Below are positions 1 to 64,000 of a DNA stretch of 64,000 nucleotides, one piece after another (position 1 is the first letter of the stretch; each line of letters begins with the position of its first letter). Made by a program: the position numbers and the translations under genes. The notes beneath the pieces are model-generated. The model was not told where the DNA came from. It made no database searches and was given only the letters and a program-made list of their open reading frames with translations. Source of the DNA: Apostichopus japonicus (lineage: Eukaryota; Echinodermata; Holothuroidea; Aspidochirotida; Stichopodidae); NCBI RefSeq assembly GCF_037975245.1, contig NC_092580.1:29105501-29169500 (forward strand), written 5' to 3'.

Positions 1-1439
1 ATGTTCAATATCTTTCGATTCGCCATTTATAAAATCATCCTCATTTTACCGAAAATAAGTATTGTAATAATAAATAAAGAAAACCACTAAAAAAATTGAA
101 GCGAATATGTGGCTCGAATTTTGTCATATTTAGACTTGCTAAAATCTCCTCCTTGAGTGTATTGGTATTGCCAACATGGAATAAAACAAATCTTTGCTGT
201 TTGGGGAATTTTGTGTGTAGCAGTAAGCTCTATCACATAAACTTTTAAGTTCTTAATCTTTGTTCTATCCACAGACCGATACGGAAAATGAAGAAAATGA
301 TCAGGACCCCTAGACAAAGAGAATACCATCAATGACCTCAGCTTCATCATGGTTGGAGCCCAGGTTAGTTCCCGTTGTCACATCCCACACCCTCCTCCTT
401 GAGATGGAATTTTGAAAAGATTAAATGCCTTGACATAAGTTAATTTTGACCAGCCCGCACCAACCCAACCCGCCAACAAACTCCCAACCCCCTTAATAAA
501 AACAAACAATTAGAATCCATACCGACGAACATCCACTCATATATACATGCAAACAAAAATTATAATAATTGCAAGAAAGCAACCTCCAGTGCCAAACCCT
601 CCCCCCCAACCCCCACGAAAAGAAGGGAAAAGAACAAGAAACGGTTGAAAGAAAAAACCGTGGTGAGTCGGAATAAGTCGATCGAGGGGAATGATGATCT
701 TGAGTTCTATAGGTTACATCATATTTTAGTAATAACCATTCAAATCTCAGTGGCGTAGGAATGTACTTTTGAGTGGGGGGGGGGGCTGAAGACTGATGGC
801 CGGCCTGGGGGAGGGGTTTAAGGGGAGGGGGTGTCCCCCTCCCCTTTGAATTTTTTTGCATTTCCAGGTAGCCTCAGATGCAATTTCAGGTGCGTATCCA
901 GGGGGGGCGTTGGGGGCGCGCGCCCCCCGGTTAAGAAAAAGAGGAGAGAAAAAAAGAGAAGAAAAAAGGAAAAAAGAGGGGAAAAAAGAGGAGGAGGAGA
1001 GGAAGGAAGGGAAAAGAAAAAGAAGAAAGAGAGAAAAAGTAGAAAAGGAGGGAGTAAAAGAAAAACGCGAAGACACCGGGAAGAGAAAGAGGAACAGTGA
1101 CATCATTACAGCGCTGAAGGGTAGCCAGTGACGGATCAATGATTTCGTAAAAGTTTGACTCACCCTACCCCTTACATCGACAACTCCATTTTTTGACGTT
1201 TCCATTTTCCTCTCTCACTAATGATCTATATATATACTTTATATGGTCTATCATAACGCGTGTGTAGAATTGTGCTATGAAACCAACTGTGGCTGGTCTC
1301 GAACTCGACCGAGTCGTCGGGGAACATGACGCATTTTGGGATGGGGGCGACCGCCCGCCCCCCCCCCATTCAGCATTTCTTTAAATGATATGATATCGCT
1401 AAGTAATTTCAAAATAGAAAGTGCTTACATGCAACTTAC

Positions 1440-3018
1440 AAGGCCTGGGAAGTGTCATTTCCAGCGATCTGGGAGACATTTTCGGCCAAAATTTGCTTGT
1501 ACGCTTCGCGCTAACAAATGGTCCTGGGTAGTGCCATTTCCAGCGATCTGGGAGGCATTTTCGGCCAAAATTTTCTTGTACGCTTCGCGCCAACCTGTGG
1601 CGCTACGCTTAGATAATTTGCCTACAGGCTTCGCCCCTCACTTGGCAAATTCCTCGCTACGCGCCTGTTCGAATTTGTAACGCAAACAGCAGACACACAT
1701 CATATCAGTGAGCATGAAAATGGCGTTCCAGGATGAAAAGCCTCAAAACTGTCCGACTTGCCTGAAAAAATAACCAACAATTTTCGCGCGCGAAGCGCGC
1801 GTTCAACGTTCTGGATATCATATAAGCAAGTATCGGTTATTACATCGCATGCCATCATGTACCGTACGGTCCGTTCAAATTGCGCAGTATACCGCGGGAT
1901 GCTAATGTAAACAACGACATGTCTCATGTAGATGTATAAAAAGCATGGAGGTCCAATTATGTCAAAACTCTCTTTTACATTAGTAATGGCGAATTAGGGG
2001 CTGCACCCCCGCCGCGCAGTGGCGGAGCGTCCATACGGTAAAGGGGCGGATGCCCCCACCCCCTGACGGACTCAAATGGACTGCTGGTGCCTTTTTCAGC
2101 TCTTTACCACTTTTTACTTTTGTATTGCGCTCTCATCTACTTATTGACATTTGTCACATTTTGTTGGTGTAATTTGGCGATGACACCTTATTCTTCGTTT
2201 ATCTGCAAATTAGCCAGGCCCGGAAAGGGTCATTTCCGGCGATCTAGGGAATATCTTTACTCAAAAATTTTCTGCACGCTACGCGCCAACCAGTGGTGGC
2301 GCTCCGCTTAGATAGTGTCGAAAGCGCCCCTACAGACCATTCTCGCCCCTCCTGACCAATAACCCTAGCTCCGCCACTGCGCCTCCTACGCCTATGTGTG
2401 TAGTGTTCGGTTTCGGAAATATCTGCTATTTTTTCATTTCCTTCAACCAAGTTTTATAATAGCCGTTATAACAGGTTTTAATATTTGTACACCAATAAAT
2501 TAACTGTGTCTGAATTTTCGAAAATTTATGACCAACATACTGCATCACACTTCCCTCTACTCGTGCAATTTTGACCGGTCTGTTATAGGGGTTGAAGGAA
2601 GTTTTTCTATATTGGTTGTCCATAGATGAAATTTTGTACAACATTATGGGTATGTTTTGAAGTGAGTTTATTCACGAAAAATGTGAATTTTCAAATTCTG
2701 AACAAATATGGGGCTTAAAACCTTGAAAAGTGGGGCTGACGGGTATTGTGGGCCGCGACGTAGAATCACCTACTAAAGCAAAGCCCCACAGCAGATGCGA
2801 TCAGGTCGAACATGATGTGTGCCGGGTTGAACATCTTCAAAAAGGTTATGGATGGAAAAAGACTATTAGGAAATACTTGGTTCTCAGGCAAAAAGTGTAC
2901 ATCTGGTTGGTCATTTCAAGCCCGAGAAGTGCCGTTTCCGGTGATCTGGGGGGTATCAAAACAAGAAATTTTCTTGTACGCTGCGCGCCAACCGATGGTG
3001 GCGCTCCGCTTAGATAGT
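1440..3018 (+). repeat. Four copies of a ~110-bp module (GGCCTGGGAAGTGTCATTTCC...)
   Basis: Copies lie at about 1440-1516 (truncated), 1526-1619, 2216-2317 and 2918-3018. Each runs from a GGCCTGGGAAGTGNCATTTCC-like start, through GCGATCTGGG, to CTTGTACGCTTCGCGCCAAC and a GTGGCGCTCCGCTTAGATAG end. Inverted or partial copies lie at 50096-50197, 50500-50556 and 51409-51512. The same module occurs in elements with different termini (2017-2379 and 50449-50613 as well as the 2 kb elements), so it is shared between families. Confidence 0.7.
2017..2379. mobile_element. Short CAGTGGCGG-ended element inside the 2.2 kb element
   Basis: The ends read CAGTGGCGGAGC (left) and, inverted, CAGTGGCGGAGCTAGG (right). 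The sister copy at 50051-51969 lacks this 363-bp segment: its uninterrupted sequence there corresponds to gcccccgcctcctacg. Flanks cgccgcg and cgcctcc form an imperfect target duplication. The segment carries one copy of the internal module (about 2216-2317). It is the third level of nesting here. Confidence 0.65.
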
Positions 3019-4461
3019 AATTCGCGCCCCCCGGGTTTGAAAATCCTGGATACGCGCCTGAATTTGGTGCAATATAGCACACTTCAACACCGACTCCATT
3101 TTGTAAACTTAATTTTGTATTTTCACCTGGCCTTAGATGCAATTTGGTGCTCCAAATGAGATTTTTTTTCTCATTTGGAAATGAAAAAGGGGTTTTCTGA
3201 CTTGCGAAGCGGGGGGGCGGAATGATACTTCCGCCCCTCCACATTTTTCACTGGGGGGCTGGCGCCCCCCCCCAGCCCCCCGGTTCCTACGCCCTTGTCA
3301 AATCTAGTATACTTATAACATAGTCACGTGTGTCCCTTTATTCACTTTGATTGGGCTATGAATGGTAATTACGAAGGTCATAGGGAAGCACATAAAAAAA
3401 ATCGTAAAAACAGTTGAAAGAGAAAAACCAGGGTCGAGTCGGAATAAGAGTTCAAAGTGAAATGATGATCATGAGCATTACACCATTAAAGTCTAGTATA
3501 GTTCAGCATAGTCTGCACTTTCCACCTCTTTATTCACTTATTGGACTTGAAATGAAATCACGAAGGCCATATAGGCAAGCACATAAACCTTTTATTTTTT
3601 AAACTTTGTTTATAACCATTGAGCTTTAACGAATAGCTCAACGTCATGATGGTGCCTCGCTGATGTCAGCAGGTCAGTCAATTGCGACCTCCAGAATGTG
3701 CATTTCATTCATCTTCATCTGGTATAAATATTCCTGCAGGAACCCGTACATCGAACAAATTTTACTTAACATATATAATGATATGTCAGTTGCCACAGGT
3801 TCCCGGGAAATAACTAAACATATATTGCGTGCATGCTTTCTTGAAATAGAAGTATGACTGTGAAAAATGAAGAAAATGATCTGCAGGTAAGGTAACTAGT
3901 AGACGTCTTGAACATGACTCTATAGGTCTTGCACAACGATTAATTGTTCCATTGACTTACACACTAGACTCGTCACTTTCAAGACCTGCCAAAGCATAGA
4001 AGTTTCAACTGGTATAGGCTATATCCTACCCACCACATACATGATAGCTGAGATCTTGGCCTATCATGGCACTTGCAAACTTCCATATCATGACCGCTTA
4101 GATTTTGAGCTAGAAGAGGAGCAAAGTTTAGAGCCACCACCCTTCCATCTGCTCGTTCTGAGTAATATCAACATTTTACCAAAGATTTTCTAAAATGGCT
4201 TATATCACCTTCGATCCTCCCTATTTTCACACCATCTGAACTGCTCTTTGATATAAAGGCAGAACAAACGATGACAGTAACTGATAACATGTTTAAACAA
4301 GCTTTACCTTAGGTAATTTTACCTCTTTTCTCTTACATTGGTAACCTTTTGAGCGGGTGAACACTACTCTAATTGTGGTGAGTTACCCATAATAGTATAC
4401 AAAGTCGGACTTCGCGGCAAGTACAGTGATGCAATGAGTAGCATACTGATTGACCAATCAC

Positions 4462-5074: not shown

Positions 5075-39857
<34,783 letters not shown>

Positions 39858-45301: not shown

Positions 45302-46648
45302 TTAGAAAGCTGTCCGCAAACGGTTGACTCGATCTTGAAAACTTCTCCTAAAGCAGAGGACCTTGAGCATGCCGAGACGGAAACGCATATTCATCTTCGC
45401 GTACAGGAACGGATTAAGCATAGAATTAAACCAGATGAGTCGCTGTAGAATCTCCCAGATCAACCCGGGAGCTTGATAAATATGCCATGATTGTAAGAAC
45501 ACCAGGATGTGGTATGGTAACCAACATGCAGTATATACGGTTGTTAACAGAAAGACACTTCGAGCAACACTGGAGTGGTCAACAAGTTTAGTATTTTCTT
45601 TTCGCTTGCGTACCCTCTTTCGATAACAAACACGGCTGTCCTCGCTTCCCGTACATTGTCGTTTTTCGTAGGTGACGTATTTCACGCCGCTGTCGGTATC
45701 ATGCTCTGCGTGTTGGTTTTCATTGCCTTCGAGTCTATTGTCTGTCTCAAATCCATCGTTTATTATTGCAAACCCTCCATGATCACCTTGTGAGCTGTTC
45801 TCTGCCATCCCTGTCGTTCCTGTAGAAATTACAGATTTCAAATCTGCGTCCGTTTCTTGAGAAATCGTTCTTTTCGGGTGAGAATTCCGGAGGTTACGAT
45901 TATTAAGTTTTCGATGTACCTTGAAGGCTACCGTTACATTGACTGCAACCAATAATACCAAAGGAATGATGAAATCTAAATTTTCCAAAATGATGGACAA
46001 TAACATGTTGTCTGTATTTTGAATCGCAACAAGGCATGTTGCTGACCCCCCTCTTCGAGTTGATGGGCTCATAATGTCGTTGGTCGACACCGAATACAGG
46101 ATGGTGTACAACGTGGTGTAGATCCACACCAATATGACCACACCCCTCGCAATGGTGTGATTCTGTAATCTCTTATATCTTAGCACATCGGATATCAGCC
46201 ATAATCGATCAATACTGATAACAATGACAGTCACCACAGACATGTAAATCACAAAGTAGTGCATCGATAACCAAGCAGCACAGAAGATATCACCGAATGG
46301 CCAGGAACCAATAGCCAAAGTTAAGAAATCCACTACCATCACAATCGAACCAACTAAAACATCCGATATCGACAAATTCAGGATAAAAATATTTGCAACG
46401 GTATTTCTGACGAAATCGTTGAGGACGTAGGATGCTATGACGATGATATTGCCGCCAATTGTAGTCAGTAACACAATCGCATAACACACCAAGAACATAA
46501 TCCAAAGAACTGGATGTGTCGAGTCTTGCCATGGCGTTGTGAGATCTTGTGACATGTAAGAGCTGTTCATAATATCCATCTTCGTAATAAATTCGTTTGG
46601 CGGCGAAAGGCGGCTGTATAATATTAAACAAGTTTCCGTTTCGATCAA
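45302..46648 (-). CDS. Class A GPCR, amine-receptor-like but lacking Asp3.32
   Basis: A single exon of 448 codons with seven hydrophobic segments. Landmarks: N67 (TM1 GGN), D96 (TM2 LSISD), C123 and C205 (conserved disulfide), D147-R148-L149 (DRY variant), W175 (TM4), P229 (TM5), C375-W376-L377-P378 (TM6), N412-P413-F-L-Y416 (NPxxY). The third loop is long (about 243-358) and basic near TM6. Overall pattern is histamine H3/muscarinic-like. At the amine-binding position 3.32, seven residues after C123, it has His130 instead of Asp, so a classical monoamine ligand is unlikely; the ligand is unknown. The first Met is at 1, but Met24 (MDIMNSS, followed by a glycosylation-type NSS) is a plausible start. 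The last exon residues RTAF precede TAA at 45302. Confidence 0.92.
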   Translation of the reverse strand: MIETETCLILYSRLSPPNEFITKMDIMNSSYMSQDLTTPWQDSTHPVLWIMFLVCYAIVLLTTIGGNIIVIASYVLNDFVRNTVANIFILNLSISDVLVGSIVMVVDFLTLAIGSWPFGDIFCAAWLSMHYFVIYMSVVTVIVISIDRLWLISDVLRYKRLQNHTIARGVVILVWIYTTLYTILYSVSTNDIMSPSTRRGGSATCLVAIQNTDNMLLSIILENLDFIIPLVLLVAVNVTVAFKVHRKLNNRNLRNSHPKRTISQETDADLKSVISTGTTGMAENSSQGDHGGFAIINDGFETDNRLEGNENQHAEHDTDSGVKYVTYEKRQCTGSEDSRVCYRKRVRKRKENTKLVDHSSVARSVFLLTTVYTACWLPYHILVFLQSWHIYQAPGLIWEILQRLIWFNSMLNPFLYAKMNMRFRLGMLKVLCFRRSFQDRVNRLRTAF

Positions 46649-48734
46649 ATCAAAATAAAGCAGAATATAGAAGAATAAATTCTAGTCATTTGCAGTAAAG
46701 TTAAAACGTTTTGAATTCTTAACGATGAAAACATACAGTTTTCAGTGAATAAATGTAAATATCTCCTCCTTAAGAAAAGATATACTCTTACTGAATGACG
46801 ATATTTTCTCTTAGAGCAAAACGCAACCGCTAATTTTATGCAAATATATAAATATACCTAGCTTCGTGTCCCGTCTTTTTATCGACCGTTTTCCTAGTTA
46901 ATCTCTCTTTCTCTCTCGCTTCATCTCTCTCCGCCTGTCTCACTTACACTCTCGCTTTCTTTGGAGGTAACTAATGAAGTGAACATATATATCAAAGATG
47001 CTTCTTGGCATTTAAACTTGATCGCACGCCTAGATATTATTTGAGCTTTGAAATTAATCTGCCTTAATGCACTGTAATCCTTATTCAGTCATTTACCATT
47101 CACCTGTTCACATGACCAAGAGTGACTTTGTGATTGGACAGAATGTGATTACTTAAAACAAACGTATTTGCGAAGATGCAGTAAAAGGGGAAACAACTTT
47201 GAATGGAGGTCAGTTTGTAATTATATTGAATACGGTTATATACTGAACAATAGAAAATTATTTTCCTTCAGCTTATTGACAATTTAATTGTTCAACACAT
47301 TTATAAATATACCATATCTTATCATTTAGAAATACATAAAAACGTCATACATTATATAAAAAAAATAACATCATGTTTATTTGAGACGGCACTGAGTATA
47401 TAATCGTTGTAAAAAAAAGTGAGAGAAAAAATCGTATTGACTCTGCCCTATATGCAGATGCCGTATAACTAGGCTACGTAGACTGGATGTTATGTCAAAC
47501 ATTACGAAACCGGTAAAAGAATTTTATCTGCTGCCTTGCCATCTACATCAAAGATTTAAGTCCTATTTCGTGACGTATTTACTCTTTAAGTTTCAGGTTT
47601 CTTCAATCTACTTGTTTACATCATTATTTGGAATAATAAGAAATGACTTGTGCAGGTGAAGGTTATCTTCATTTCTTTATATGAGAGTTTAGTAAAGAAT
47701 GAAATCGACAACGTTGATCAAAATTGCAAATTTGAAAGCCGCTTCTTATAGTTGCAATTTATTTCCGTGAATTTGATTAGTCCGATATCCGTTTTGATTT
47801 TTCGGTTCGTTAGTTGTTCGGGGAGTTTTCTTTGTTAGTGCATGTGTGTGTGGGGGGGGGGGGGGTGGGGGTAGTGTGTGCGTATAATTCATCCTTTTGT
47901 TTCGATCGATTATGTATTAATTATTTGCAATCGTCAGCTTTACAATATGAGCAATGTATAAATACGAGTGGAGTCTGATTCATTATTCTAGGTCCTAATT
48001 CGAGTCCCTGGTTATGTTGAGTGCGTATTGTCAAATTTCGATTAGATTCAGTCTTTTGGAAACTGTTTTAAATGTATAGTATTTCTTATTGGGGTTTATA
48101 TCTCCACTCATATGAAACTAGTCGATAGAAGAAGACAAAATTAAGCGCAAAATACAAAACAAACCTCAATTTGTTTTTTTTTTGTTTTCCATATAAGAAC
48201 GAAATAAGTCTTTGATAATGAATATCACGCGACAAAAGCATTTGCTGCAGAATCGACAATGACGTTACAGGTAGGACATGATTTAACTTTAGTCGACTAT
48301 TCATAGGGTTGAAATCAATCCAAGAGGTTTTACCATGGAAAGTACAGGGATAGGAGTGAAGAAGTCCTTTGGGGGGGGGGGGGGGGGGTTGCTCACACAA
48401 CCCCTGGATTTTGTGTACAGCTAATATTCCTTTTTTGCCTGCCAAACTATAATATTCCGCTGATTGTTTTAACTTTCTTCCCGTTATCAAGAATTTAGTA
48501 CAATTGTCAATTATATACGATATATTGAGCCGAGCAAGATCGTGCTGTTATTTCTCTTATTCACAATGTCTGCTGGAAAAGATCAAACTATTGCTAGAAT
48601 AAAACACAATTTTGACCGTTTTCTCATTTTTCAACTCTGATAACAAAATGTTAGCTATAGGGCTTATAGGGATGGGACGTAATCATGTTATATCTTCTGC
48701 AATCATGCAGTTCTGATCCAAGCTGGTTTTATGG
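46649..48734. other. No gene recognised; two long poly-G runs
   Basis: Intergenic DNA upstream of the GPCR. It contains G homopolymers at 47853-47866 and 48371-48388 and a TC-rich stretch at 46901-46960. The ORF on the - strand at 48086-48490 spans a poly-G run and has no domain I recognise. Confidence 0.5.
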
Positions 48735-49215
48735 TAAATATCGATTTATTGGGAAAATGTTCGATGTTTTGTTTTAGATCTCATCGATCATCAGTTACAT
48801 GCACCCAAAATGATTGGCATCATTTTTGTTTTTGGATTATTGTTGAAAAAGCTTTCAATACAATTGAATGGAACTTTATTGACATTGTCTGCATTTTGTT
48901 GGTTTTGAGGAGAAATGACCAAATTGGGCAAGCAGTTAGAGACCTTTGAACAATGTTTTTCTTGAACGGATTTTAAAATAAGTATAGAGGAGTTCGTCAA
49001 GAGTGTCCTTTGAGCCTCTATCGTTTCATTTTATTTATCAAGCTGTTAACTCTGAGCGTCATGGACCCCCCACCCCTCACACCCTGGGAAATACCATTCC
49101 TCCCCGAAGAGATAAAAAATCTAACAGTTTATGGATGACACTGTCATTTTCTTGGATGTCAGTTTTGATGCTCTTCGTATATGCTATTAAATATTCTTAA
49201 TTGCCTAAAATATGA
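48735..49215 (+). pseudogene. LINE reverse transcriptase fragment (copy A)
   Basis: Frames across this stretch give ENVRCFVLDLIDHQLHAP-like, then VEKAFNTIEWNFIDIV (RT motif A region, normally DxxKAFD), then RGVRQECPLSLYRFILF (the QGCPLSP motif). Finally VYG is followed, after a 1-2 nt shift, by DDTVIFLDV, the catalytic YxDD box. Stops and frameshifts show it is dead. The part from 48980 onward is duplicated at 60106-60340, where the LINE continues further. Confidence 0.8.
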
Positions 49216-49220
49216 GAAAT

Positions 49221-49880
49221 TATATGTTCAAAACTATTCTCATCACCTTCAAAACCTCAAGGACTAATTAGGAATTAACGTTCTCATATTCTCATCCGAA
49301 AACAGACCTCTGAAAAATGTGATTTCAAAACAAGAAAACGATGACGCCATATTAGGAACACAACTGCCAAGCACAGGCATGTACCGGATGCGCGACGATC
49401 ATACCGTCCCACATTCACATACATTTACACTGAGAAAAACAACCACTGTATTTCGCTATATCGTTAGAGATTTCAACTTTTCTTTACAACATGTAAAATA
49501 TCAGAGAAAAATGCCTGTCCGTTGTGTTGTTGGAGTCTGCAGTTATGTCATAACCCGTGCAATTAGCCTTCATCGTTGGCCAAAGGACGAAAAAAACACC
49601 AGCCAGTATACAGCTCCGTATGTAGCGAACACTTCACGGAAGCAGACTACGATCGCTCCTTCTACTGAAATAAAACAAATGGGCTTTAATGGGTCGACAT
49701 AAACGAGTCGTTCATACTGGCAAGTACCCCACATTAAAAACTCCTAAGACCAGAGCGGGGAACAGGAAACCTCCAGTGGGACAAGTGGCGATCCTTTGGA
49801 GGAAGCGCGGCCAAGCACTAATGCTAGTATTAGCGTTACTACACTGAAGTCGCAAAAGACGAAGAGTGTTTCCATTATCA
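49221..49880 (+). pseudogene. THAP-domain gene fragment (copy A)
   Basis: From ATG at 49511: MPVRCVVGVCS, then ISLHRWPKDEK, then, after a frameshift, the bases for CSEHF. This is the C2CH zinc pattern of a THAP DNA-binding domain, common at the start of P-element/Kolobok-type transposases and of host THAP proteins. The start MPVRC and the RWP segment are intact, but the domain is broken in the middle. The downstream bases match copy B at 61849-62520. Confidence 0.7.
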
Positions 49881-50050
49881 TCTTAATTCACACCCCTTAA
49901 TTGCCCTATAGTTGTGTAGTAAGAACTATAAGGTTAGCTTCAGAAGGGATGGGTTACACCGTCTGTGAAAAATCTCAGTGCCACAATTTCTTTCTGGAAT
50001 ATGCTGGGTCAGTTAGTTATTTCTTATTCGTATCCCAGGAAAACCATTTT

Positions 50051-51969
50051 CAGGCGCGTATCCAGGATTTTCTAACCCGGGATGCGCGAATTACTGTCTA
50101 AGCGGAGCGCCACCATCGGTTGGCGCGGAGCGTACAAGAAAATTTTTGGTTTTGATACCCCCCAGATCACCGGAAATGGCACTTCTCGGGCTTGAAAATG
50201 AGCAACCAGATGTACACTTTTGCCTGAGAACCAAGTATTTCCCAAAAGTTTTTTCCATCCATAACCTTTTTGAAGATTGTCACCAGTCACACATCATGTT
50301 CGACCTGATTGCATGTCCTATGGATCATTGCTTTTGTAGGTTATTCTACGTCACGGCCCACAATATCCGAAAGCCCCACTTTTAAAGGTTTTAAGCCCAT
50401 TACTTGTTGAGAATTTGAAAATTCACTTTTCTCGTGAATAAAATCACTCAGTGGCGGCGGAACCGGGGGGGGGGGCTTGGGGGGGCTCAGCCCCCCCAAT
50501 GAAAAATTTCCTTGTACGCTCCGCGCCAGCCGATGGTGGCGCTCCGCTTAGATAGTCTCCACACATTAGCCCCCCCCCCCCCCCCCAATAATTTTTACGT
50601 TCCGCCGCGCCTGAAATCACTTGAAAACATACCCATAATGTTGCACAAAATTCAATCTATAAACAACCAATATAGAAAAACCTCCTTGAACCCCTAACAG
50701 ACAGGTCAAAATTGAACGAGTAGAGGAAAGTATGATGAAGAATGTTGGTGAGGAAATTTTGGAAAATTCCGACACAGTTAATTTATTGGTGTAGAAATAT
50801 TGCAACCTCTTATAATGGCTTTTACAAAACTTGGTTGAAGGAACAGAAAAATAGGAGATATTTCCGATATCAGGTATATCGAAACCGAACACTTCACTCA
50901 TTGGCGTAGGTCCCGTAGGAGGCGGGGGCTGCAGCCCCCCCCCCCCAATTTTTTTCCCATTTTTTTTGGGCACCTACTGAAAGAAAAATAAATAGCAATG
51001 AATAGCTTAAAATGATCTCCTTGGTAATTTAAATAAAGTTGTAAGCTTGGCCGACATTACTACTGTAAAAGAGAGTTTTGACATAATGGATCTGTATGCT
51101 TTTTCTCCATCTACATAAGACATTTGGTTGTTTACATTAGCATCCGGCGGTATACTGTGCAACTTTGACGGACCGTGCGGTACACGATGCCATACAATGT
51201 AATGACCGATCTTGCCTATATGATATTGGCATCGACATGTTGAATGCGTGCTTCTTTGACTACACACATTGACAGTTTTTGAGGCTGTACATCGTGGAAC
51301 ATGCATTTCAATGCTCATTGATATGATGTTATATCTGCTCTTTGCTTTACAAATTCGAACAGGCGTGTAGCGAGTGATTGCCAAGGGAGGGCGAAGCCTG
51401 TAGGCAAACTATTTAAGCGAAGCGCCACCATGCGTTGGCGCGAAGCGTACAAGAAAAATTTTGGCCGAAAATGCCTCCCAGATCGCTGGAAATGACACTT
51501 CCCAGGCCTTGTAAGTTGCATCTAAGCATTGTCTATTTTGAAATTACTAGCGATGTCATAAAGAAAATTTGCTCGGGGGGGGGGCGGTCGCCCCCTTCCC
51601 GAAATGCGTTATGTTCGCCGATGACTCGGTCGAGTTCAAGTACATTAGTGAGAGAGGAAAAACGGAAACGTCAAAAATGGAGTTGTCGGGGTAAGGGGTA
51701 GGGTGAGGCGCACACCCCCTCCGTAATCCTTGATCTGTCACTGGCTACCCTGTGTATATAATAGGGATCTTTCTCTTCCCGAGGTCTTGGCTATCTTCTA
51801 CTCCCTCCTTTTCTCCTTTTTCTCTCTTTTTTCTTTTTCTTTTCCCTTCCTTCCTCTCCTCCTTTTCTTTTTTCCCCTCCTTTTCCCTTTTTTCTTCTCT
51901 TTTTTTTCTCTCCTCTTTTCCTTACCCGGGGGGCGCGCGCCCCCAACGCCCCCCCTGGATACGCACCTG
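50051..51969. mobile_element. Second 1.9 kb TIR element with 5-bp duplication (inverted copy)
   Basis: Ends CAGGCGCGTATCCAGG and CCTGGATACGCACCTG, flanked by ATTTT at 50046-50050 and 51970-51974. The duplicated segment at 62673 is uninterrupted here (aaaaccattctatgttgg), a direct empty site. Its sequence, read on the - strand, matches 887-3060 over most of its length, including the purine-rich block (pyrimidine-rich on the + strand, 51785-51925) and the internal modules, so it is the same family in opposite orientation. No transposase frame. Confidence 0.9.
50449..50613. mobile_element. 165-bp hAT-like MITE nested in the 1.9 kb element
   Basis: Ends CAGTGGCGGCGGAACC and, inverted, CAGGCGCGGCGGAAC, with a perfect 8-bp target duplication AAATCACT at 50441-50448 and 50614-50621. 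The sister element has an uninterrupted gttttgaagtgagtttattc at the corresponding place (about 2653-2673). It consists mainly of G and C runs around a partial internal module (cttgtacgctccgcgccagc ... gtggcgctccgcttagatag). Confidence 0.88.
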
Positions 51970-53002
51970 ATTTTATGTTGGGGAGGGAGTGAGGGTGAAA
52001 GGGATTGGTCAAAATAAGGTTATAAAGATTATATTCCAAAGGGTGTTTAAATCTCACAGAGATTTATTTTAAACAGTCACAGAGCCAAAAATTGGCACAA
52101 CGTAGTTCAAATATTAAATCTTTGAACGAAGTTCATTCAATATCAGTTCTAGACAGTCGTCATTCTGGACAATCTGAACAAGCCTGTGACTAAACCAACA
52201 TTAACAACAATCATTGCTTTATGTCATCAATATAAAACTGTACTTTTCATAGACAATATCATTCTTAAATTACACTGATGTAATTTGTGACATCAAAGGA
52301 GGTTTAAGGAAAAACAACTTACATGAAAGTTTTGGCTTCAAGCCTAAAAAAGATACATGTTCATTGCCATCAATCGTTGTTGTGACAAATTAATTAGAAT
52401 AAACCAGAGGCAAACAGAATAAAGGGTCATTTCAACCAAGAAACACTGCATGACGCAACTCACATGCAACAATGTTACCACACATGACGACACGTACAAC
52501 ACTGACGCAACGTGAAACACAGCATGACACGCATTATGAGTTTCTGAAGAAAGATTGTCAAACAAACCACCTGCTGCTGAAGAAACAACTCTAAACATTC
52601 AAGAGTTCTTCTACCTCCATTAATCTTTATTATGACTTTTTGACAAATATCATGGAAGCAAACATGTTTGGGAGGTAAATGCTCCGAAAATGGTAAATCC
52701 CCGTTCACTTATGCTCATATTATATGACATCATTGTCACGCCAATACATGTATCCAAATGCTTCAAAACATGCCTTTTCATTTCATTGTTGATATTGGGT
52801 CTGGAAAATGACCATTTCATCCTTAATTAAAAGTCTTGAATTTCAATATATCAACACTTAAGGAACCCTGACGGATTGATAATCCAACACAATCGTAGAA
52901 TAGAAAAGATGTTTCTGGAGGGATTTCTCAACCAAGGCTTCCTATACAATAGCGTTTTCTCTTGGCAACTTGAATCCAGTGTACATACCATTGGATGGAA
53001 AC

Positions 53003-53113
53003 TCACTTCTGATCCTTTGGACTGCACATGATGGTAACAAACCCCTGACTAGTCATGTTAGGACCCCCTAGCAACATGGAACCTGTTGACGGAATGCTAT
53101 GTATCTGTACTGC
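53003..53113 (-). CDS. Candidate terminal coding exon, copy A (unrecognised gene)
   Basis: On the - strand a good acceptor (ttttcttttcag) is followed by 36 codons and TGA. The peptide begins AVQIHSIPSTGSMLLGGPNM and ends TSQGFVTIMCSPKDQK. The phase is assumed to be 0. Sequence after the stop looks like a 3' UTR. I do not recognise the family, and no upstream exon is identified; upstream exons would have to lie to the right, beyond or interleaved with the + strand TIMP gene, so this copy may be an orphan duplicate. Confidence 0.45.
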   Translation of the reverse strand, partial: AVQIHSIPSTGSMLLGGPNMTSQGFVTIMCSPKDQK

Positions 53114-53479
53114 CTGAAAAGAAAATTATGAAAGTTTAAATGTATTAATGTGGGCCCTTGATGTCCACAATAACAAGCGTGATACAATGTACTGTTATGG
53201 TTACATTTGTTGTGAATTTACACCTTCCATGTTTCATGAACATTCTTTACAGTTTCAGACAATGATTTTCAAAACTCCAGGCCTAAGTGCTAACCTAGTA
53301 ATGAGTATAAAAAGACACAAATGCCTACCTAACATGGCTGCATAATGCAGTTTACATCCCTGAGCCAAACTTTCAGTATTCAACCAACCCTACTAGTAGT
53401 AGATACGAAAGATCTCCATATCAATAGAGACAACGCTTCATGGTAAACAGTCATGTGAAACAATCTCGACCAGGTTCAA

Positions 53480-55159: not shown

Positions 55160-58059
<2,900 letters not shown>

Positions 58060-59365: not shown

Positions 59366-59912
<547 letters not shown>

Positions 59913-60105: not shown

Positions 60106-61840
60106 TATAGTAGAGGAGTTCGTCAAGATTGTCCTTTGAGCCTCTATCGTTTCATTTTTTTTATCAAGCTGTTAACTCTGAGCGTCATGGACCCCTCCCC
60201 CCCACACCCTGGTAAATACCATTCCTCCCTGAAGAGATGAAAAATCTTACAGTTTATGGATGACACTTTTATGTTCTTGGATGTCATTTTTGATGCTCCT
60301 TGTATTATGCTATTAATATTCTCAATTACCTAAAATCCTCTTCGAGTTTATAGGTGAATTATGGCAAGTCGCTTCTCTTTCCTTTAGTTGGCTAAAGAAT
60401 GAAACCCCTTGCTTTCACAACATATTTAACTTGAAATAGACTAGCCTCAATTAACTGCATACTAAAGCCTTCAGCGCCTTAAGTAATGATTTCATATTTA
60501 ACTCTACAATCGACAGGATTAATATCGTAAAATTGTTACAGTTGCCTCAATTAGTTTTTAATTCAGATCTTTCCGGATTCTCCATAAAGTCTTTCTCGAA
60601 AACACTCGACATTATTTGAACTAGTTTAAAGTAGCGCTAAGCCTGATATAATAGTAAGCGTTATACCATGTTGTTCAATGCTCTTGATATGGGTGGGGCT
60701 AAGGGCGATACACCTTCATTCCTCGTTTCAAGTTTAAAGTGTCCTTGGGTGAAACGGTATTAAGATACTATAACACAAATGATTTGAAAGTCTATTTTGT
60801 TTCTTTCTTTTATTTCCATATGAAAAATTATGGCGGTTCTAAGTTGTTTAATTGTAATTTTAAGAAGGAAGATATTACCCTACATAATCATTATATTTCT
60901 GGTGTGTGTACTTCGCCTGTGCAAGTTTACTCATCGAAGACCTGAACATAATGTTTTATCAAAGTAAATAATAACATTATTAACTGTCAATGTTTAACAT
61001 AGCAAAAGGTGTCCTTCAAGTCAAAGATATTTTCGACCACTATAAGCGTCATTTTGTCATATCCTGATTTTGTGGCAAAATGTTCTCTGAAATAATTTCC
61101 CATATTACTTTATTTTATGGTTGCTGTTCTGCCATCCGTCGAAGTTGCAGGAATAGTTTGCGCAACGATATTGAGGAGACTTTAAGATCCCCTCTGGATG
61201 GTTTTATTAGCACTTCCGCCTAACCAAGAATTATAATATTATCATAATTAGGTCAAGTAGTTACTCACCCTCCTACTGCTCATTAAAAATTGGAATCAAA
61301 TGTTTCAGTTCAAATAATAACCAATGGCCTGCCATAGATTCGTTGATCCTTTTCTTTCCGTTCGAGAAATATAAAGTCCAATATTTGCAATTTTGCTTCG
61401 TCCATAGAATATTGAGTATTTATCAGTTTCTCTATTGTATCAATAAAACAGTTATTGTTTCTCTGTTCGTTTTGTGGACGATTCTAAGAAACATGAGAAC
61501 ATTTCTTGGGGGACTGTGAATGTAACTTGAAGTAAATAGATGTCGAAAGTGCTATTGTTTTGGCAGGAATTAATTTTTAAACAAGCAAGATATTTTCATT
61601 GGTTATTGTCTTAAGCAGAATCAGCCGTATAACTTCCTTATTTTCAACATGAAGCACATCTTATTTAGTAAAAAAAAATGCTGATCATTGACTATGTGCT
61701 AAATTTTTGCAGAAACTTACGTTTATTTAAAAAGGAGAAAGTACTTCTAGCAAGGCTCATACAAAGTATGAGGAAATAAGACGTTCCTTTAAGAAGGCCA
61801 TGACATGCAATTCCAACTAAGAGTAACTTCCTCTGAATCT
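60106..61840 (+). pseudogene. LINE ORF2 3' half (copy B)
   Basis: Starts with the same RT segment as copy A (GVRQ..CPLSLYRF, then the YxDDT box), then extends about 1.5 kb further. Recognisable pieces are LPQLVFNSDLSGFSIKSF, GGAKGDTPSFLVSSLKCPWV (the GGLxxxxxxxFxxSLKxSWxKR motif of many LINEs), and a cysteine pattern with HENIFLG near 61490, followed by LIFNMKHILFS near 61630. Frameshifts and stops abound. The family was not determined. Confidence 0.7.
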
Positions 61841-61848
61841 ATGAGAAA

Positions 61849-62520
61849 ATATATGTTCAAAACTATTCTCATCACCTTCAAAACCTCAAGGACTAATTAG
61901 GAATTAACGTTCTCATATTCTCATCCGAAAACAGACCTCTGAAAAATGTGATTTCAAAACAAGAAAACGATGACGCCATATTAGGAACACAACTGCCAAG
62001 CACAAGCATGTACCGGATGCGCGACGATCATACCGTCTCACATACACGCACATTTACACTGAGAGAACAACCACTGTATTTCGCTATATCGTTAGAGATT
62101 TCAAGTTTTTTACAATATGTAAAATATCCGAGAAAGATGCCGGTCCGTTGTGTTGTTGGGGGCTGTAGTTATATCATAACCCGTGCAATTTGCTTCATCG
62201 ATGGCCAAAGGACGGAAAAATACCAGCCAGTATACAGCTCCGTATGTAGCGAACACTTCACGGGAGCAGACTACGATCGCTCCTTCTTACTGAAATAAAA
62301 CAAATGGACTTTAAAACGAGTCGTTCTTCTTGGCAAGTACCCCCACATTAAAAACTCCGAAGACCAGATCGGGGAACAGGAAACCTCCAGTGGGACAAGT
62401 GGCGATCCTTTGGAGGAAGCGCGGCCGATCACTATAGTACTAGTATTAGCGTTACTACACTGGAGTCGCAAAAGACGAAGAGTGTTTACATTATCATCTA
62501 AATTCACATCCCTTAATTGC
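61849..62520 (+). pseudogene. THAP-domain gene fragment (copy B)
   Basis: From ATG at 62137 one frame runs MPVRCVVGGCSYIITRAI, a frameshifted middle (the RWPKDE segment is lost), then YSSVCSEHFTGADYDRS and stop at 62296. The C-x4-C and C-x2-H zinc ligands of a THAP domain are kept, so this copy preserves the end that copy A has lost. The sequence downstream (gggacaagtggcgatccttt) is shared with copy A. Confidence 0.7.
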
Positions 62521-63696
62521 CCTATAGTTGTGTAGTAAGAACTAGCTCCAGAAGGTTAGCTCCAGAAGGGATGGGTTACGCTGTCTATGAAAAATCTCAG
62601 TGCCCCAATTTCTTTCTGGAATATGCTGGGTCAGTTAGTTATTTCTTATTCGTATCCCAGGAAAACCATTCTATGTTGGAGAGGGAGTTGGGGTGATAGG
62701 GATGGTCAAAATAAGGTTATAAAAGATTATATTCCAAAGGGTGTTTAAATATCACAGAGATTTATTTTAAACAGTTACAGAGCCATAAATTGACACAAAC
62801 GTAGTTCAAATATTAAATCTTTGAACGAAGTTCATTCAATATTAGTTCTAGACAGTCATGTTGGACAATCTGAACAAGCCTGTGACTAAACCAACATTAA
62901 CAACAATCATTGCTTTATATGACATCAAAATAAAACTGTACTTTTCATAGACAATATCATTCTTAAATTATACTGATGTAATTTGTGACATCAAAGGAGG
63001 TTTAAGGAAAAACAACATGAAAGTTTTGGCTTTAAGCCTAAAAAAGAAGAAGATGCATGTCCATTGCTATCAATCGTTTTTGTGACAAATTAATTAGAAT
63101 AAACCAGAGGCAAACAGAATAAAGGGTCATTTTAACCAAGAAACACTGCATGACGCAACTCACATGCAACAATGTTACCCACACACGACGACACGTACAA
63201 CACTAACGCAACGTTAAACACAGCATGACACGCATTATGAGTTTCTGAAAAAAGATTGTAAAACAAACCACCTGCTGCTGAAGAAACAAGTCTAAACATT
63301 CCAGAGTTCTTCTACCTCCATTAATCTTTATTATGACTTTTTGACAAATATCATGGAAGCAAACATGTCTGGGAGGTAAATGCTCCTAAAAAGGTCAATC
63401 CCCGTTCACTTAGGCTCATATTACATGACATCACGGTCACGCCAATACATGTATCCGAATGCTTCAAAACATGCCTTTTCATTTCATTGTTGATGTTGGG
63501 TCTGGAAAATGACCATTTCATCCTTAATTAAAAGTCTTGAATTTCAATATATCAACACTTAAGGAACCCTGACGGATAGATAATCCAACACAATCGTAGA
63601 ATAGAAAAGATGTTTCTGGACGGATTTCTCAACCAAGGTTTCCTATACAATAGAGTTTTCTCCTGGCAACTTGAATCCAGTGTACATACCATTGGC

Positions 63697-63807
63697 TCAC
63701 TTCTGATCCTTTGGACTGCACATGATGGTAACAAACCCCTGACTAGTCATGTTAGGACCCCCTAGCAACATGGAACCTGTTGACGGAATGCTATGTATCC
63801 GTACTGC
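63697..63807 (-). CDS. Candidate terminal coding exon, copy B (unrecognised gene)
   Basis: Same 36-codon exon as 53003-53113, with the acceptor ttttcttttcag and stop TGA. The only difference over 111 bases is CAG to CGG at codon 3 (Gln to Arg), while a 7-bp indel lies immediately past the stop and the flanks carry many changes. This contrast suggests recent coding constraint. Upstream exons of a real gene could lie beyond base 64000. Confidence 0.5.
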   Translation of the reverse strand, partial: AVRIHSIPSTGSMLLGGPNMTSQGFVTIMCSPKDQK

Positions 63808-64000
63808 CTGAAAAGAAAATTATGAAAGTTTAAATGTATTAATGTGGGCCCTTGATGTCCACAATAACAAGCGTGATACAATGTACTGTTATGGTTAGAT
63901 TTGTTGTGAATGTACACCTTCCATGTTTCATGAAACATTCTTTACAGTTTCAGACAATTGATTTTCAAAACTCCAGGCTTAAGTACTAACCTAATAATGA

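Follow-up and report, generated by a model that had tools for sequence, protein, structure and literature searches.

Elements of the hAT superfamily usually make an 8-bp duplication of their target site, and their ends typically start with CAG. Transposon superfamilies are regarded as having a nearly constant duplication length, a property that mirrors the geometry of strand transfer. Named exceptions to the 8-bp rule are hAT5, hAT6 and hAT7 according to PMC12730594, where families with 5-bp and 6-bp duplications are designated hAT5 and hAT6 (citing Kapitonov and Jurka 2007, Repbase Reports 7:1188 and 7:1192, respectively) and are placed within the lineage of Blackjack and other animal hATs. 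PMC9004415 describes hAT5 as present in some invertebrates and fish and as unusual for its 5-bp duplications. For Apostichopus japonicus, the 2017 genome paper assigns 18.93% of the genome to unknown repeats (PMC5638244).

Here we examine a family of terminal inverted repeat (TIR) elements with two copies in a 64,000-nucleotide stretch of A. japonicus DNA (the window), giving one abundant family of repeats in this genome a probable classification and a candidate enzyme. The first-pass annotation had taken a 5-bp duplication to set the family apart from ordinary hAT and leave it unclassified. That argument fails because 5-bp hAT families are already named hAT5 in PMC12730594 and PMC9004415. Our best explanation, to which we give a probability of about 0.7, is that the family is a high-copy non-autonomous A. 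japonicus transposon with 5-bp duplications, that it most likely belongs to the hAT5 type, and that it is likely mobilized in trans by a transposase of the DUF4371-hAT lineage. A single full-length open copy of that lineage with a matching end, L093, came to light on contig C22.

The window family resembles hAT5 in its 5-bp duplications (31 of 36 copies exact), a comparison made with the published description of hAT5; the L093 lineage differs from hAT5 in making 6-bp duplications nearly as often as 5-bp ones. Duplications of 6 bp, as in hAT6, are found at 9 of the 20 derivatives of the L093 lineage and at one of the 36 window-family copies, whereas 5 bp is the majority length, by a very wide margin in the window family. 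Ordinary 8-bp hATs of the Hermes, Ac and Tip100 type are similar in their short CAG TIRs, and the candidate enzyme has a hAT-dimerisation domain and a Hermes-like topology. In contrast to those elements, 8-bp duplications occur in 0/36 window-family copies and 0/20 L093-lineage derivatives, although a small element nested at 50449-50613 does have 8. Neither the window family nor a mixed 5/6-bp hAT family was named in the titles and abstract openings searched, a set outside Repbase and the subscription journals. The window family is most likely a new non-autonomous family of a kind, hAT5, that is itself already named, with relatives whose stagger is unusual.

The window family and its empty site

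The features on which the mobility of the family rests are as follows.

50051..51969, + strand: copy B, putative non-autonomous element, most likely hAT5-type, 1919 bp, with exact TIRs, a 5-bp duplication and an empty site
50046..50050, no strand: ATTTT target duplication left of copy B, exact
51970..51974, no strand: ATTTT target duplication right of copy B, exact
887..3060, - strand: copy A, putative non-autonomous element, most likely hAT5-type, 2174 bp, with exact TIRs, an AATTT duplication and homology to copy B
882..886, no strand: AATTT target duplication left of copy A, exact
3061..3065, no strand: AATTT target duplication right of copy A, exact
49211..53304, + strand: duplicated flank interrupted by copy B, 92.2% and 94.3% identical to 61840-64000
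61840..64000, + strand: duplicated flank without the insertion, extending past the end of the window
62668..62672, no strand: paralogous empty site for copy B, reading ATTCT where copy B has ATTTT

The two copies are mutually inverted and are joined by six main homologous blocks with 85-90% identity. Their TIR, CAGGYGCGTATCCAGG, is short and begins with CAG; it is exact at both ends of copy B (CAGGCGCGTATCCAGG at 50051-50066(+) and CAGGTGCGTATCCAGG at 51954-51969(-)) and likewise at both ends of copy A, at 887-902(+) and 3045-3060(-). A search of the window that allowed up to three mismatches returned five matches, compared with 0.22 expected, the fifth being internal (1652-1667). In copy B, an ATTTTC-type left arm runs from 50051 and a G-rich, purine arm runs inward from 51969.

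The flanks of copy B are 92.2% identical to 61840-62670 and 94.3% identical to 62668-64000, and when they are joined through a single ATTTT they match window positions 62613-62732 with 94.2% identity over 121 columns. The empty site is paralogous, not allelic. Mobility, as first proposed, is upheld by the exact 5-bp duplication together with this paralogous empty site; the uninterrupted read-through also stands, but the site reads ATTCT (62668-62672) and not ATTTT. Because the site is paralogous and differs by this one base, the read-through could conceivably record the precise loss of an element, that is, excision rather than insertion. We consider this highly improbable: two copies of ATTTT flank the element whereas the empty paralogue has a single copy of the site, which is the signature of an insertion, and 30 further copies have exact 5-bp duplications of their own. 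For copy A, the best nearby match to the joined flanks extended over only 16 bases (AGATGCAATTTGGTGC at 3135) and was rejected as an empty site because it is too short.

In the 671.6-Mb genome, the exact 16-mer occurs 1,973 times in forward and 1,969 times in reverse orientation (3,942 in all), and the reversed-pattern control does not occur. These numbers, and the exact ends of copies A and B, bear out the proposal that 16-bp ends define a family. We sampled copies from the first 100 listed ends, all on contig C1, of which 68 form 34 inward pairs; all 34 were fetched and, with copies A and B, make up a set of 36. Every pair in this set is Y-type at both ends, so copies with G-type left ends do not enter the tally. 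An exact 5-bp duplication is present in 31 of the 36 copies and an 8-bp duplication in none, so that the 8-bp duplications with shifted ends that would have spoken against the family were absent from the copies examined. Among the remaining five, one has an exact 6-bp duplication (L015), one a 4-bp duplication (L011) and one 4/5 matching bases (L017), and L022 and L028 have none. Flanks taken from different copies matched over 5 bp in 12 of 1,260 comparisons. The duplicated bases are A/T-rich, as had been noted from the window, chiefly at positions 2 and 4 (28/31 each).

The family has two distinct arms with a fixed polarity: one ATTTTC-type arm and one G-rich (purine) arm are found in 34 of the 36 copies, and L033 and L041 score for arm type at one end only. 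When the copies are sorted on their length and on how closely they match copy B, two main groups emerge, one of about 1.8-1.96 kb and the other of about 2.1-2.2 kb; L017, L024, L038, L040 and L041 are among the exceptions. Identity between nearest neighbors reaches 97.3%.

Copy B has two notable internal features.

50449..50613, + strand: nested hAT-like element inside copy B, 165 bp, with ends CAGTGGCGGCGG/CAGGCGCGGCGG and an 8-bp duplication
51418..51510, + strand: internal module common to copies A and B, found by BLAST at 6 further places with 79-93% identity

The nested element is bounded by an exact 8-bp duplication, AAATCACT, at 50441-50448 and 50614-50621, and its site is uninterrupted in 31 of the 36 family copies, the exceptions being copy B, L010, L016, L017 and L041. 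The same reading thus returns 5 bp for the outer element and the ordinary hAT length of 8 bp for the nested one, which serves as an internal control. The purine-rich arm and internal modules described earlier were recovered, with a G-rich arm in 34 of the 36 copies scored together with an ATTTTC-type arm and the 51418-51510 module repeated in A and B. Copy A contains a nested stretch of its own at 2017-2379, between CAGTGGCGGAGC-type inverted ends, that is absent from copy B; no clear duplication was seen at its edges.

Coding capacity was assessed from open frames of 75 aa or more in copies A and B and of 110 aa or more in L009-L013 (3.3-7.3 kb), the five of the 36 copies longer than 3 kb. 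All 20 open frames overlapping copies A and B lacked a Pfam match over the cut-off, in agreement with the original statement that no transposase is visible; there was one weak DUF2889 match (E 0.07). The suggested longer, transposase-encoding copy was not found among L009-L013, where none of the 22 listed frames matched a transposase. In these five, the cut-off is exceeded once, by a reverse transcriptase nested in L011 (PF00078, 1.4e-36), and L010 has two low-complexity frames with Pfam matches below the cut-offs. Judged by its sequence, the window family is non-autonomous (MITE-like), with no recognized transposase inside and with ends common to a coding element.

A candidate transposase

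The genome contains 633 PF05699 candidates, of which 150 were scored, and ends were read at the 30 best PF05699 loci and in another 20 stretches that lie downstream of this domain. One of these 50 loci and stretches (C22:19511057) ends in CAGGGGCGTATCCAGG, 600 bases from the start of the stretch.

C22:19510628-19515813: L093, coding element of 5,186 bp with exact TAATT at both ends

Sites as good as the TAATT pair around L093 arose in 0 of 1,000 shuffles when an exact match was required and in 3 of 1,000 with one mismatch. The L093 frame is open over 772 codons and contains PF14291 (DUF4371, 8.8e-19) and PF05699 (hAT dimerisation, 5.9e-7); its product is 100% identical over 99% to an A. japonicus protein annotated at NCBI as '52 kDa repressor of the inhibitor of the protein kinase-like'. 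A structure model built from a 15-row alignment (pLDDT 81.7, pTM 0.65) was compared with known folds using Foldseek, and all 12 matches at E <=0.001 are Hermes. The correspondence is one of topology only, with TM-scores of 0.45-0.57 normalized by target and 0.33-0.38 by model and an rmsd of 9.9-13, and a sequence search of solved structures with the L093 protein found none. Residues D275, D279, D340 and E710 are invariant across the 15 alignment rows, and we take these to be the catalytic residues. If L093 is its partner, these domains and this fold would place the window family in the hAT superfamily.

At its 5' end, L093 lacks 14 bases that are present in its derivatives, with the duplication intact. 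The sole full-length coding copy found, L093 may supply enzyme yet no longer be mobile itself.

An origin in another superfamily that makes 5-bp duplications, such as a Transib/RAG-like one, with hAT-like ends acquired by convergence, would account for the duplication length, since 5-bp duplications are the rule in ProtoRAG/Transib. Transib ends follow a CAC rule, however, whereas those of the window family are CAG, and the element with matching ends encodes a transposase of the hAT type. We therefore regard this origin as very unlikely and retain the hAT5-type assignment.

The other hAT loci add related ends but no second candidate. None of the 30 best PF05699 loci has an exact TIR pair. Related single ends are present in L056, L064-L066, L068, L069 and L067, the last of which also has one exact Y-type end, facing away. 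Inward related ends (2 and 3 mismatches) surround the hAT domain of L071, which is 98.7% alike to L065 in this region, but L071 was rejected because there is no duplication. In the sister family L066-L069 (46-47% protein identity), the 3' end is CAGTGGCGGATCCAGG and no 5' end was found within 4.4 kb upstream; one copy has a pair of 5-bp flank matches, which we put down to chance. L126, a 48-49% relative, ends in CAGGGACGTAGCCAGGATTTGC, and L127 has no such end. In sum, the 50 hAT loci and stretches together with L126 and L127 yielded no other coding copy with these ends, most of the 150 scored places lying outside this reading.

Ends, arms and duplication lengths in the two families

Four elements, L094-L097, are deletion derivatives of L093 with blocks that are 93-97.5% identical; each is bounded on both sides by CAGGGGCGTATCCAGG, and the 5' arm is G-rich while the 3' arm reads ATTTTCC. 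Beyond the TIR, the left arm of the window family matches the 3' arm of L094 (shuffles as good: 0/2,000) and the right arm of copy B matches the 5' arm of L095 (8/2,000), and the crossed-arm comparisons of the family with L094 and L095 gave no match. A further resemblance links the left arm to the 3' end of L066 (4/2,000), so part of the arm similarity is a trait of the wider lineage. Homology of the family interior to L094 and L097 was discarded as evidence because the matches fall in the flanks of these elements, and the sequence common to the window family and L093 amounts to only about 37-42 terminal bases.

The two families also have end sequences in common. A 31-base pattern for the window-family left arm is joined to the Y-type TIR in 1,306 places and to the exact L093-lineage 16-mer in 406 (controls 0), so that 406 of 1,712 exact left arms carry CAGGGGCGTATCCAGG. 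We compared the positions of 32 single Y-type ends and 41 G-type ends on C1 up to 19.42 Mb, and found 10 inward Y-type/G-type rows within 8 kb (9 distinct G-type ends), with no outward and no tandem rows; random placement gives 0.27 expected and a maximum of 4 in 2,000 trials. The window-family left arm is present on 8 of these 9 G-type ends, and L001, the one mixed pair whose interior was read, carries the window-family right arm. One mixed-ended row, 12024950-12029486, was rejected as a simple copy because it has left arms at both ends. Three mixed-ended pairs on C1 (4082193-4087868, 7700955-7706711 and 11617133-11622542) are 5.4-5.8 kb long and thus gene-sized.

To compare duplication lengths we turned to the G-type 16-mer, which occurs 929 + 926 times in the genome (control 0), and read the ends of 20 G-type pairs on C1 and C2 (L106-L125 and L130-L149). 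By eye, all 20 have arms of the L093 type, some slightly changed. The duplication length of this lineage is not fixed at 5: exact 5-bp duplications were found in 11 pairs and exact 6-bp duplications in 9, with 8-bp duplications in none of the 20. Chance matches between different pairs numbered 2/380 for 5 bp and 0/380 for 6 bp. Two of the 5-bp pairs, L124/125 and L146/147, are probably one duplicated locus because their flanks are nearly identical; counted once, they leave 10 five to 9 six. Outside this set of 20, the duplication of pair L128/L129 is exact over 6 bp. In the five L093-lineage copies examined before these, it is exact over 5 bp in L093 and L096, L097 matches at 4/5 and L095 at 5/6, and L094 shows neither length. 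hAT5- and hAT6-type lengths therefore coexist within one family, the L093 lineage. The spectra of the window family (31:1) and of the L093 derivatives (11:9) differ (Fisher p 3.5e-4, or 2.4e-4 without the duplicate).

These results narrow the question of the partner transposase raised by the first-pass annotation to a hAT enzyme with matching ends and a 5-bp duplication in the same genome, but do not close it, because the family of that enzyme also makes 6-bp duplications. The difference in spectra argues against the L093 enzyme moving the window family in the same manner as its own derivatives, and the enzyme of L093 itself may not be the partner; the window family may depend on a second enzyme. 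The window family could be of hAT5 type and moved by a related, strictly 5-bp transposase that is now lost, rare or undetected, with the L093 lineage serving only its own derivatives. The short extent of common terminal sequence and the lack of a coding copy with these arms among the five long copies also favor such an arrangement. The identical 16-mer on 406 of 1,712 left arms, the existence of mixed-ended copies and the correspondence of both arms in order point the other way, as does the failure to find another coding copy with these ends in the 50 hAT loci and stretches, L126 and L127 (150/633 candidates scored). We judge a dedicated second enzyme possible but clearly less probable than mobilization by the DUF4371-hAT lineage.

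Under the preferred reading of mobilization in trans by that lineage, an enzyme of the lineage would bind each end across the 16-bp terminus plus the next 20-25 bases. By analogy with hAT biology, it would then excise the element and join it to a target whose strands are cut at a spacing of 5 (or 6) bases, and repair of the gaps would yield the target duplication. The window family would supply the ends only and would owe its abundance to mobilization in trans, as is the case for MITEs.

The 11:9 ratio among the L093 derivatives favors a lineage in which the stagger is not fixed. We tentatively suggest, at somewhat less than even odds, that this hAT lineage cuts its targets 5 or 6 bp apart about equally often for its own derivatives, whereas the window family, with its identical 16-bp end, is kept at 5. 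The arms that adjoin the TIR, or else a sister enzyme, would then set the spacing, and hAT5 and hAT6 would form one continuum instead of two separate groups. A mixed 5/6-bp lineage and a sister family that has the same 16-bp end and nearly pure 5-bp duplications make a natural pair with which to probe how the spacing is controlled.

Other features of the window

Outside the two copies, the window contains one gene with a close match in A. japonicus and two tRNA-like sequences.

45302-46681, - strand: histamine H4 receptor-like gene, 96% over 93% to an A. japonicus protein
8026-8114: tRNA-like Thr(tgt), found by ARAGORN and as tRNA in Rfam too
59366-59439: tRNA-like Cys(aca), found by ARAGORN and as tRNA in Rfam too, adjoining a TA array

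The Cys(aca) sequence may be a tRNA-derived repeat. Pfam gave no match at E 0.01 for the duplicated open frames at 49268-49702 and 61897-62298, whose cysteine/histidine pattern is THAP-like by eye. Long TGA and TA microsatellites occupy 55339-56148, 59487-59660 and 59759-59912.
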